A stretch of 64,000 nucleotides of DNA from Mycobacterium sp. UM_CSW. Its GTDB lineage: Bacteria; Actinomycetota; Actinomycetes; Mycobacteriales; Mycobacteriaceae. Numbering within the stretch: the first letter of the stretch is position 1; each line of letters starts with the position of its first letter. Positions 19,894-57,009 of the stretch are shown piece after piece. The stretch spans positions 1-64,000 of the forward strand of contig NZ_AUWQ01000035.1 of the NCBI RefSeq assembly GCF_000455205.1. The letters run 5' to 3'. A model generated the notes under the pieces. The model worked only from the letters and a program-made list of their open reading frames with translations, searched no databases and was not told the origin of the DNA. Both the position numbers and the translations under genes were made by a program.

Positions 19894-19951
19894 CCGAACG
19901 TCACGCCAGCGTGGCACTGGGCACCGAACGTCACGCTGGCGTGACGCTCGG
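19894..19951. repeat. Tandem 20-base repeats with inner palindromes after aceE
   Basis: CCGAACGTCACGCCAGCGTG (19894-19913) and CCGAACGTCACGCTGGCGTG (19924-19943) lie 30 bases apart and differ at two positions. The second copy extends into a 13-bp hairpin (CCGAACGTCACGC / GCGTGACGCTCGG, one mismatch) with a 2-base loop. It begins 10 bases after the aceE stop and may act as its terminator. Confidence 0.6.
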
Positions 19952-25511: not shown

Positions 25512-26933
25512 ATGACAATCATGGCCCCCTCGTCGGTTGGTGAGTCGCTCGACCCCCGAGACCCGTTGCTGCGCCTGAGCAATTTCTTCGACGACGGCAG
25601 CGTGGAACTCCTGCACGAGCGTGACCGCTCGGGCGTGCTGGCCGCCGCGGGGACCGTGAACGGTCTGCGCACCATCGCGTTCTGCACCGACGGCACCGTG
25701 ATGGGCGGCGCGATGGGCATCGAGGGGTGCACGCACATCGTCAACGCCTACGACACCGCCATCGAGGAACAGAGCCCGATCGTGGGCATCTGGCACTCCG
25801 GGGGCGCCCGGCTGGCCGAGGGGGTCCGGGCGCTGCACGCGGTCGGGCTGGTGTTCGAGGCCATGATCCGCGCGTCGGGCTACATTCCGCAGGTCTCGGT
25901 CGTCGTCGGCTTCGCTGCCGGCGGCGCCGCCTACGGACCGGCGCTGACGGACGTCGTCGTGATGGCGCCCGAAAGCCGGGTGTTCGTCACCGGGCCCGAC
26001 GTGGTGCGCAGCGTCACCGGCGAGGACGTCGACATGGCGTCGCTCGGCGGCCCGGAAACGCACCACAAGAAGTCCGGGGTGTGCCACATCGTCGCCGACG
26101 ACGAACTCGACGCCTACGAGCGTGGCCGCCGGCTGGTCGGATTGTTCTGCCAGCAGGGCCATTTCGACCGCGGCAAGGCCGAGGCCGGCGACACCGACAT
26201 CCACGCGCTGCTGCCCGAGTCCGCGCGGCGGGCCTACGACGTGCATCCGATCGTGACCGCGATCCTCGACTCCGACACTCCGTTCGACGAGTTCCAGGCG
26301 AACTGGGCGCCGTCCATGGTGGTAGGGCTGGGCCGGTTGTCGGGCCGCACCGTCGGCGTGCTGGCCAACAACCCGCTGCGGCTGGGCGGCTGCCTGAACT
26401 CCGAAAGCGCCGAGAAGGCGGCACGTTTCGTGCGGCTGTGCGACGCGTTCGGGATCCCGCTGATCGTGGTCGTCGACGTGCCCGGTTACCTGCCGGGCGT
26501 CGACCAGGAGTGGGGTGGCGTGGTGCGGCGCGGCGCCAAGCTGCTGCACGCGTTCGGCGAAGCCACCGTGCCCCGGGTCACCCTGGTCACCCGAAAGACC
26601 TACGGCGGGGCCTACATCGCGATGAACTCCCGCTCGCTGAACGCGACCAAGGTGTTCGCCTGGCCGGATGCCGAGGTCGCGGTCATGGGCGCCAAGGCGG
26701 CCGTCGGCATCCTGCACAAGAAGAAGCTGGCCGCCGCGGCCGACCACGAACGCGAAGCGCTGCACGACGAACTGGCCGCCGAGCACGAGCGGATCGCCGG
26801 CGGCGTCGACAGCGCCATCGAGATCGGCGTGGTCGACGAGAAGATCGACCCGGCGCACACCCGCAGCAAGCTCACCGAGGCGTTGGCCCAGGCGCCGGCA
26901 CGCCGCGGTCGCCACAAGAACATCCCGCTGTAG
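25512..26933 (+). CDS. accD6: Acyl-CoA carboxylase carboxyltransferase subunit AccD6
   Basis: This 473-residue carboxyltransferase works with the biotinylated AccA3 to make malonyl-CoA for FAS-I and FAS-II. It has the two crotonase-like halves. The N-terminal half shows IWHSGGARLAEG and FAAGGAAYGPAL; the C-terminal half shows VDVPGYLPGVDQEWGG, KTYGGAYIAMNSR and the AVMGAKAAVGIL block. It follows kasB by 44 bases in the same operon, as in M. tuberculosis Rv2247. A long palindrome begins 14 bases after its stop. Confidence 0.97.
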   Translation: MTIMAPSSVGESLDPRDPLLRLSNFFDDGSVELLHERDRSGVLAAAGTVNGLRTIAFCTDGTVMGGAMGIEGCTHIVNAYDTAIEEQSPIVGIWHSGGARLAEGVRALHAVGLVFEAMIRASGYIPQVSVVVGFAAGGAAYGPALTDVVVMAPESRVFVTGPDVVRSVTGEDVDMASLGGPETHHKKSGVCHIVADDELDAYERGRRLVGLFCQQGHFDRGKAEAGDTDIHALLPESARRAYDVHPIVTAILDSDTPFDEFQANWAPSMVVGLGRLSGRTVGVLANNPLRLGGCLNSESAEKAARFVRLCDAFGIPLIVVVDVPGYLPGVDQEWGGVVRRGAKLLHAFGEATVPRVTLVTRKTYGGAYIAMNSRSLNATKVFAWPDAEVAVMGAKAAVGILHKKKLAAAADHEREALHDELAAEHERIAGGVDSAIEIGVVDEKIDPAHTRSKLTEALAQAPARRGRHKNIPL

Positions 26934-26947
26934 GTCGCCTTTTTACC

Positions 26948-27007
26948 CGCGAGCAGACGCAGAATCGCACGAGCGCGCGCTGCGCAGTGCGATTCTGCGT
27001 CTGCTCG
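26948..27007. repeat. Long palindrome, copy R1 (downstream of accD6)
   Basis: Perfect 21-bp arms at 26950-26970 and 26987-27007 enclose a 16-base loop; the left arm begins CGAGCAGACGCAGAATCG. Near-identical elements occur at 27958-28017 and 56948-57009. It starts 14 bases after the accD6 stop and ends 57 bases before the DUF559 gene, so it may end the FAS-II transcript. The same arm sequence beside unrelated genes points to a dispersed repeat rather than a private terminator. Confidence 0.85.
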
Positions 27008-27064
27008 GCCGTCTATCCCCAGCGGTGACTCGCCAATACGGCGTGCTCCTCGCATGCTCTGGCG

Positions 27065-27952
27065 GTGCATGCTGGAGCGCTCGCAGTCCTGCAGCAGGCT
27101 GGCGGGTTCGCCACTACCGCACAGTTGCTGACGGTAATGACCCGGCAGCAGCTCGATGTCCAAGTTCGAAACGGTGGCCTCAAACGCGTCTGGTATGGGG
27201 TTTACGCCGCTGAGGAGCCAGATCTTCCAGGTCGCCTGACCGCGTTGGACATGTTTATGGGGCAGCACGCCGTTGTCTGCATGAACACAGCCGCAGCCCT
27301 GTACGGCTTCGACACGGAAAACGCGACCGCAGTCCACATACTCGATTCTGGTGTACGAATGCGTCCCACAGTGGGCCTGATGGTTCATCAACGCACTGGT
27401 GCCCCATTGCAACGGATAGCAGGCCGTCTCGCGACCACACCTGCCTGGACCGCTGTCGAAGTCGCGAGGCAGTTGCCACGTCCTCGGGCAATCGCAACAC
27501 TTGACGCCGCATTGCGTTCGATGCGTTGCAGCCGCGCAGAACTCGAACGTGCGGTTGCCGAGCAGCGGGGCCGTCGCGGGATAGTGGCTGTGCGGGGACT
27601 CCTTCCCTTCGCCGACGGACGTGCGGAATCCGCGATGGAAAGCGAGGCTCGACTCGTAATGATCGACCACGGGCTTCCCCTTCCAGAACTTCAATACCCA
27701 ATTCGTGGTCGCGACGGTGAATTGTGGCGAGTCGATTTTGCATGGCCGGAGATGCGCCTAGCGGCTGAATACGAAAGCATCGAGTGGCATGCGGGACGCA
27801 GCGAGATGCTCCGAGACAAAATAAGATCCGGCATCATCCAGGAACTTGGATGGACGATCATTCCTATCGTCGTCCACGATGTAAGACGCGAACCCGAGCG
27901 ACTTGCCATGCGAATCGCCACCCATTTGGACCGTGCACGCAAAGCCGGCTGA
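27065..27952 (+). CDS. AbiEi-like/DUF559 endonuclease-fold protein
   Basis: The 295-residue protein has an N-terminal winged-helix region like the AbiEi antitoxin type (residues 1-45, GGFATTAQLLTV and RVWYGVY) and a C-terminal DUF559/Vsr-like domain. Candidate PD-(D/E)xK residues are Glu192 or Glu194, Asp224 (WRVDFAWPE) and Glu235/Glu237 (EYESIEWH). Such proteins are common in mycobacteria and of unknown role; the usual EYD is EYE here. The gene is visibly richer in A/T than its neighbours and is bracketed by palindromes R1 and R2. It starts with GTG and has no obvious partner gene. Confidence 0.75.
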   Translation: MHAGALAVLQQAGGFATTAQLLTVMTRQQLDVQVRNGGLKRVWYGVYAAEEPDLPGRLTALDMFMGQHAVVCMNTAAALYGFDTENATAVHILDSGVRMRPTVGLMVHQRTGAPLQRIAGRLATTPAWTAVEVARQLPRPRAIATLDAALRSMRCSRAELERAVAEQRGRRGIVAVRGLLPFADGRAESAMESEARLVMIDHGLPLPELQYPIRGRDGELWRVDFAWPEMRLAAEYESIEWHAGRSEMLRDKIRSGIIQELGWTIIPIVVHDVRREPERLAMRIATHLDRARKAG

Positions 27953-27957
27953 CGATG

Positions 27958-28017
27958 GCGAGCAGACGCAGAATCGCATAAAAGACCGTCGCGCAGTGCG
28001 ATTCTGCGTCTGCTCGC
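27958..28017. repeat. Long palindrome, copy R2 (between convergent genes)
   Basis: Perfect 21-bp arms (27958-27978 and 27997-28017) enclose an 18-base loop. The arm sequence is the same as in R1, including the shared GCAGTGCGATTCTGCG entry to the right arm. It begins 6 bases after the DUF559 stop and ends 10 bases before the stop of the convergent GDSL gene. Confidence 0.85.
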
Positions 28018-28027
28018 GGTGGGCATC

Positions 28028-28771
28028 TCAGGAGTCCAGAAACCGCTGAACCGCCTCGGTGAGGATGCGCCCGCCGTTGGTGTTGAGATGAATGCCGTCG
28101 ATGTGGAATTGCCAGCCGTTGCGCCGAGCGATCTCGTCAAAGCTTTGGCGTAGCACCATCTCCCGCCACAGGTAGTCGCGGTAGAGCGACGCGAAGGAGA
28201 ACCGGGTGAACGGTTTGGTCGTCGCCGCCTCGGTGAGGCGCTCCTGGAATGCTTCGTAGAACGGGATGTAGTCCGTCGACTCCCGGGCGGCCGTTTCGCG
28301 GATAATGCCGTTATACGTGGCGAACAGGGCGTTGAGCCGCGCCTGAACCGGATGGCGTGAACCGGGCGCTTCCCCCACCGGGGCAAGGGAACTCAGCGCG
28401 ACCCGGGCGCTTGTCTCCCGTTGCAGCCGGCGCACGATGACGGCCAGGTTCTCCTCGAACCGCGCCGGTATCGGTTCCTCGCGAAGCCCCTTCCACATGC
28501 GAACGAATCGCCGGAAGTTGGGAAAGACGCTCGCCATGATGTCGTTGCTGCCGATCAGCACGATGACCCGGTCCGGCCGGCGCGCGATCACCCGGTCGAG
28601 GCGCCGGACGGCGTTGACCGACAGATCCCCGCCGACGCCGAGGTTGACGAAGCGAAACCGGTTGTTGCCGGGCCGCTTTTCCAGCTCGTCGATCCATTTG
28701 TAGGTTCCCCTCGACGCGGTGGTGCTCGACCCCAGGCACGCCACCGTTTCGGAACGCGGCGGGTCGGTCAT
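28028..28771 (-). CDS. SGNH/GDSL-family hydrolase
   Basis: A 247-residue esterase-like protein. Block I is ACLGSSTTASRG with the probable nucleophile Ser, block II contains the Gly of NLGVGGD, block III is LIGSNDI, and block V is IDGIHLNTNG with the catalytic Asp and His. No signal peptide is seen, so it is likely cytoplasmic. The ATG at 28771 overlaps the stop of the FAD monooxygenase (ATGA), so the pair is coupled. The substrate is unknown. Confidence 0.85.
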   Translation of the reverse strand: MTDPPRSETVACLGSSTTASRGTYKWIDELEKRPGNNRFRFVNLGVGGDLSVNAVRRLDRVIARRPDRVIVLIGSNDIMASVFPNFRRFVRMWKGLREEPIPARFEENLAVIVRRLQRETSARVALSSLAPVGEAPGSRHPVQARLNALFATYNGIIRETAARESTDYIPFYEAFQERLTEAATTKPFTRFSFASLYRDYLWREMVLRQSFDEIARRNGWQFHIDGIHLNTNGGRILTEAVQRFLDS

Positions 28772-46165: not shown

Positions 46166-46225
46166 CGCGAGCGCAACCACACTGCGATATTTCTCGCCGG
46201 ATTTCGCAGTGTGGTTACGCTCGCG
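46166..46225. repeat. Long palindrome with 22-bp arms between convergent genes
   Basis: Arms at 46166-46187 (CGCGAGCGCAACCACACTGC...) and 46204-46225 pair over 22 bases with one mismatch, around a 16-base loop. The size, loop length and CGCGAGC start resemble R1-R3, but the inner sequence differs. It lies 13 bases after one stop and 10 bases before the convergent PE gene stop. Confidence 0.75.
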
Positions 46226-56947: not shown

Positions 56948-57009
56948 CGCGAGCAGACACAGAATCGCACAATTTCGCGTCGCGGAGTGCGATTCCGCGT
57001 CTGCTCGCG
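56948..57009. repeat. Long palindrome, copy R3 (downstream of cyp124)
   Basis: Arms at 56948-56970 and 56987-57009 (23 bases) pair with two mismatches around a 16-base loop. The left arm matches R1 except for one base. It ends 8 bases before the GTG of the following gene, so it covers the place where a ribosome site would lie. Confidence 0.82.

Follow-up and report, generated by a model that had tools for sequence, protein, structure and literature searches.

Two copies of a short palindrome of fixed length bracket a nuclease-like gene in Mycobacterium sp. UM_CSW, and we consider it probable that gene and palindromes form a partnership like that of REPIN elements and RAYTs, the transposases associated with repetitive extragenic palindromic (REP) sequences. 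The enzyme is not homologous to theirs: it is an AbiEi-Vsr protein, paired with a palindrome family of its own. The locus lies in the first 64,000 nucleotides (nt) of contig NZ_AUWQ01000035.1, which we analysed whole and refer to as the window. From computation we observed the association of gene and palindromes, their matching by family, dispersal of the palindromic unit with sharp ends, turnover at orthologous sites, changes that preserve the hairpin and a nuclease fold in the protein.

The gene (27065..27952, + strand) begins with GTG and encodes a 295-residue protein with an AbiEi-like and a nuclease part. The upstream palindrome, R1 (26948..27009, no strand assigned), has a 56-nt core at 26951-27006 and 21-nt arms (26950-26970 and 26987-27007) that are 100% complementary around a 16-nt loop. 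Its stem starts 16 nt past the stop codon of an accD-like gene and ends 57 nt ahead of the nuclease-gene start codon. The downstream palindrome, R2 (27956..28019, also without strand; core 27960-28015), has equally perfect 21-nt arms (27958-27978 and 27997-28017, 100% complementary) around an 18-nt loop, starts 5 nt past the nuclease-gene stop codon and is placed between convergent gene ends. R1 and R2 share a 24-nt match between the left arm of the former and the right arm of the latter. A preliminary description had reported near-identical palindromes outside one gene of lower GC (guanine plus cytosine) content than its neighbours, and both observations hold, the gene having a GC content of 0.59-0.62 against mostly 0.63-0.72 in adjacent stretches. 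It had also treated R1 and R2 as a pair; both are real, but they are not the only copies, since the genome holds 14 exact-arm palindromes and the window one more element of the family. This solo element (56948..57009, no strand assigned, beginning GAGCAGACACAGAATCGCA) adjoins no nuclease gene, and the sequence around it aligns with loci of genome G098.

Both palindromes fold strongly as DNA relative to shuffled sequence (R1, -35.4 kcal/mol, z -7.6; R2, z -7.5). The hairpins near stop codons are strong, and no T run was seen after R1 or R2. The 17-nt arm, allowing up to three mismatches, has seven matches in the window (one of them unrelated) against 0.29 expected, and none of 100 shuffles reached seven. 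A known RNA family was rejected, since an Rfam search of positions 26500-28500 returned nothing above the gathering score and only three sub-threshold microRNA matches.

We searched the window's genome with an exact-arm pattern that permitted spans of 49-64 nt, and all 14 palindromes with both 17-nt arms exact span 56 nt, with differing loops; the pattern GAGCAGAC-N{30,50}-GTCTGCTC has 28 matches. Across the genus, the ends GAGCAGAC and GTCTGCTC at a span of 46-66 nt are present in 82 of 98 genomes (0 to 108 per genome), whereas the reversed control pattern matched in one only (G041). Eight other genomes have 75 listed places: the span is 56 nt at 63, 55 nt at nine and 58, 60 and 66 nt at one each, the last two being non-palindromic. 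Element sites lie between convergent genes in 13 of 21 cases, with four left unassigned by the coding-bias heuristic used, and mostly within 20 bp of a stop codon. The family thus shares a trait of REPINs: conserved ends, inverted relative to each other and a fixed distance apart, that lie mostly outside genes. Arm matches number more than 20 per strand in G000 and 19-23 in G098, and only five palindromes with the window-family arm were seen in G099. Both flanks of one site fall on separate contigs in G098, and the elements may break short-read assemblies.

Palindromes recur beside relatives of the gene. One scan gave 72 loci, with a hairpin of 46-82 nt in 56/67 testable upstream flanks, in 57/71 downstream flanks and in both at 44/66, compared with 9/314 control windows. 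This strong excess beside DUF559-type genes is the enrichment that the preliminary description had named beforehand as its check. It had also pointed to the orthologous gene in close relatives; at the accD locus of other slow growers, palindromes are present at nearly all loci seen, L038 and L068 being without the downstream one. Neither outcome named there as refuting the idea was thus found. Chance palindromes were rejected on the arm count against shuffles, the 14 fixed-span genome copies and the excess of flank hairpins over control windows.

A comparison independent of palindromy, in which the upstream flank was aligned with the downstream flank, gave the same association. Scores lay above the 99th percentile for 122/133 close and 16/29 distant mycobacterial homologues, with 260 same-locus controls (191 loci gave 167 distinct proteins, 162 of them with both flanks). 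In other actinomycetes, 32/59 homologues scored above 20 against 0/127 displaced control pairs; at a threshold of 18 the counts were 34/59 and 1/127, and at 15 they were 38/59 and 6/127. Two of 61 actinomycete loci were skipped, at least one passing row (L318) looks low-complexity and some passing rows consist of tandem arrays. In two genomes of another family the whole pattern recurs with different arms (CGGTGATCTTGACGTT): all 18 two-armed copies have an offset of 47, and each genome has a homologue bracketed by two of them. An enzyme gene next to its own element family is a further trait shared with REPIN/RAYT. Some non-mycobacterial homologues (L297, L311, L319, L320) are flanked by tandem copies of a short unit and not by one palindrome, and the flanking repeats of L286, L288, L293, L294 and L340 are of a differently built type that shares TGATCATGCA.

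The type of palindrome follows the gene. Of the 133 close genes, 82 have GAGCAGAC-type elements both upstream and downstream; at these, inner-arm mismatch within a locus was 0.10 against 0.36 when permuted, and arm divergence tracked protein divergence (Mantel r 0.74), a test that does not remove shared ancestry; the finder was fixed to 55-57 nt, which leaves lengths uninformative. To take out species background, flanks were exchanged between pairs of homologues from the same genome, and own flanks won in 52/52 pairs and in 31/31 outside the window's genome. In that comparison 21 of the 52 pairs come from seven genes of the window's genome and are not independent, and three further homologues there (L012, L015, L018), with no flank repeat seen, were left out. 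Dispersed elements (52 from five genomes, with own flanks set apart and one flank only for G090 and G007) were nearest to the gene flanks of their own genome in four of five genomes in a five-way comparison. This first comparison did not use three listed G057 elements of another type; with all ten, G057 elements lie slightly nearer to the G000 flanks (2.9) than to their own (3.2).

Some distant homologues in the window's genome carry other palindrome families. One such palindrome of fixed size, with CGTCACGCCAGCGTG arms, lies at 19894-19951 of the window and belongs to the family that flanks homologue L013 on contig C115. A third type of equal size, with GCGCAACCACACTGCGA arms, lies at 46166-46225 and matches nothing at the ten homologue loci identified in this genome. 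The off-centre motif GGCGTGTCG or its complement recurs within many otherwise unlike element families (at many of L065-L075, L113-L128, L146-L179, L198, L199 and L375-L384).

We examined the protein by structure matching, in which the Vsr-like and AbiEi-like folds were taken from a second look at the Foldseek list. Residues of about 1-184 form an AbiEi-like part, and about 187-293 a part with the fold of a Vsr-like (EDxHD) catalytic domain. E192, D224, E235 and D251 are conserved in close, distant and non-mycobacterial homologues, and R196 is conserved as well; H242 is invariant in the close clade only, so that a correspondence to the EDxHD motif is putative. The window protein falls below the cut-offs of DUF559 (PF04480; 13.6 bits, cut-off 20.6) and MTES_1575 (PF18741; 23.5 bits, cut-off 38.2), and of seven other proteins scanned four pass DUF559 and none MTES_1575. 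The two direct neighbours encode a carboxyltransferase and a GDSL lipase, and our scan of these two found no AbiEii toxin gene. The preliminary description had envisaged an endonuclease that recognises or spreads the palindromes in the manner of REP elements; association, specificity and nuclease fold support this reading well, while cutting and spreading are steps that we infer.

Next, we compared gene presence with element number. The 51 of 98 genomes with a best match of E<1e-95, a cut picked after the table was seen, hold a median of 21 elements and none has zero. The median is 4 in 17 intermediate genomes and 0.5 in 30 genomes without a close gene, 15 of which have zero.

Near-identical copies in G007 show dispersal of the whole unit. 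Among ten of its 80 copies, picked for their GACACGCCG interior, identity reaches 54/56 positions while the sequence around the copies is unrelated; the ends at GAGCAGAC and GTCTGCTC are sharp, and a few bases adjoining them are conserved less strongly. The arms also change in step. At the orthologous upstream site of the accD locus, represented by R1 in the window, the 20 sequences compared, which exclude L031, L068 and others that lack an upstream element of 56 nt, show five pairs changed on both sides, with 13 cells where shuffles give 3.0. Sixteen G007 copies, with ends fixed by the pattern and with two AGAATCGC-type copies and two of other length left out, gave 13 cells against 3.6; this cell number is unusual, whereas the number of two-sided pairs (4) is not (47/500 shuffles). 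Because two-sided change occurs among copies of one genome, it suggests that one arm may be templated on the other, which a hairpin intermediate would allow.

Sites also turn over. Joined flanks of 12 solo sites were compared with four related genomes, and eight sites gave 13 continuous element-free junctions. Many sites are common to the window's genome and a close relative, and seven orthologous copies in G098 keep 97.5% identity in the arms and 80% in the loops. Five sites have loci in G098: three hold an element and two hold none that is recognisable. At two of the three (L234, L240) the element is AGAATCG-type in the window's genome and AAAAGCCCC-type in G098 (L257, about 1449-1504; L274, about 1442-1497). 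Arm type can therefore change, or a site can be hit twice. Loops as captured target DNA were rejected, as no such sequence was seen by eye at the element-free junctions.

We propose that a chromosomal gene encodes a protein whose AbiEi-like part would bind DNA and whose Vsr/EDxHD-like part would act as a nuclease, and that this protein recognises one palindrome family whose length is constant, at 56 nt in this family and about 55-65 nt in others. A protein dimer would use the two arms as half-sites, which would explain why the spacing is fixed and the loop free. One copy would sit on each side of the gene, with others dispersed, mostly just past stop codons between convergent genes. The protein would bind the palindrome and nick or cut it, probably as a hairpin or cruciform, and so drive its copying; two-sided changes would arise when one arm is copied from the other via the hairpin.

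Several results weigh against this proposal. In five genomes that lack a close gene there are 6-24 elements, some of them with excellent arms, so elements can outlast the gene or arrive without it; a distant homologue that keeps them there was rejected, as 0/30 fetched loci were flanked. The flank tests missed 11/133 close, 13/29 distant and 27/59 non-mycobacterial homologues, and when dispersed elements were ranked against all 82 loci, their own gene came first only for G034. A 12-nt stretch of arm end persists at two of the 13 element-free junctions, and the more distant G101 carries an element in place at four of the eight sites (L230, L233, L234, L249). Loss is therefore common, the pattern in G101 pointing to it, and gain of elements is not demonstrated; presence and absence were withdrawn as proof of recent insertion on these two grounds and on the mixed state of the five G098 sites. 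Target-site duplications were not resolved in the diverged intergenic sequence at the junctions. The window's genome is without a visible recent burst, since the arms of its elements are 0.97 identical and their loops nearly unrelated (0.37, shuffled 0.32). The nuclease step is made firmer by the structure result and the spreading step less firm by the turnover result, which leaves our overall estimate unchanged.

The same observations can be read without mobility. The palindromes would then be functional sites, and the protein a site-specific DNA-binding factor that regulates its own gene via the two copies beside it and also acts where dispersed copies lie between convergent genes, such as at bidirectional terminators, with selection keeping the arms while loops drift. 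Conserved arms beside near-random loops, strong hairpins, the convergent positions close to stop codons, and the fact that a close relative shares many sites and a more distant one shares some, others having been lost, all fit such a role. We nevertheless consider it unlikely: element number ranges from 0 to 108 between congeners, whole elements are near-identical, interior included, at unrelated G007 places, the element at two orthologous G098 sites has another arm type, and a conserved nuclease fold with its residues would be unneeded.

We regard as very unlikely an autonomous transposon, made of the gene and two flanking palindromic terminal inverted repeats, with the dispersed palindromes as remnants or derivatives resembling miniature inverted-repeat transposable elements. 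Flanks are inverted in 74 of the 122 passing close genes, and homologue loci differ between slow and fast growers. They match directly in the other 48, however; the gene keeps its place at the accD locus from one slow grower to the next, with homologues at other loci in fast growers; and copies on plasmids or phages are almost absent. The 91 close genes fetched, which come from 61 genomes and are not all of the listed close matches, showed no near-identical units within a genome (highest identity 0.68; 32 pairs, 28 genomes). Least credible of all is a passenger gene, lying between REP-like repeats moved by another enzyme or inserted by recombination between two repeats as the preliminary description had alternatively suggested: its low GC content and the genomes with elements but no close gene are in its favour, but flanking repeats recur around homologues at different sites and vary with the gene subfamily within a single genome too, element number can be predicted from the presence of the gene, and a RAYT as mover was rejected because a PF01797 (Y1_Tnp) search found no match in the window's genome and was positive in 5/14 control genomes.

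If the proposed partnership of AbiEi-Vsr protein and palindromes is correct, it suggests, at the level of function, what a large family of actinobacterial genes with poor annotation may do, accounts for a layer of short repeats in mycobacterial genomes and adds a second, unrelated enzyme with the REP lifestyle. The many natural enzyme-palindrome pairs of differing specificity make a recognition code directly testable. With slightly less than even confidence, we extend the proposal to a new class of selfish genetic systems widespread in actinomycetes: several AbiEi-Vsr nucleases per genome, each with a private hairpin family of 55-65 nt, recognised as a dimer, multiplied via a hairpin intermediate and evolved independently of HUH-based REP elements. 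Were the nuclease shown to multiply the elements, the system would deserve a class of its own.

Finally, we compared the system with known ones. AbiEi antitoxins (PDB 6y8q) share the AbiEi-like fold present in the window protein, which differs in being fused to a nuclease domain and in having no AbiEii toxin gene in either scanned neighbour. Homing endonucleases mobilise the reading frames that encode them (PMC3943268); compared with those of EDxHD (Vsr-like) type, such as I-Bth0305I (PDB 3r3p), here the short palindromes and not the gene are multicopy, and the N-terminal part is AbiEi-like. The stem-loop families Myt-1 and Myt-8 of M. tuberculosis are, by description, catalogued repeats with structure and of similar size (72 and 92) in a mycobacterium, but the part of the catalogue used here gives them as repeats only, tied to no gene (PMC2267715). 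In open-licence papers we found no link between DUF559-type genes and repeats.

RAYTs are usually single-copy, and here too the gene is not multiplied while its elements are multicopy (0-108 per genome). As far as the excerpts used here describe it, a genome can hold several REPIN families, each near its own RAYT, and RAYT phylogeny largely follows species (PMC3116915). Set against that description, the likeness lies in an enzyme gene that has short inverted-repeat elements of its own family next to it, in conserved ends at a fixed distance with a less conserved spacer and two-sided hairpin changes, and in several families in one genome, each near its enzyme gene (PMC3116915). The differences are that the enzyme here combines a Vsr/EDxHD-like fold with an AbiEi-like part, where a RAYT is an HUH Y1 transposase (IS200/IS605-like), that the arms are about 20 nt long and not themselves REP hairpins, and that a copy stands on each side of the gene. 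The system behaves like REPIN/RAYT, yet it falls outside that group, whose defining HUH enzyme it lacks; in mycobacteria and other actinomycetes, a known kind of bacterial repeat system seems to have evolved independently a second time.
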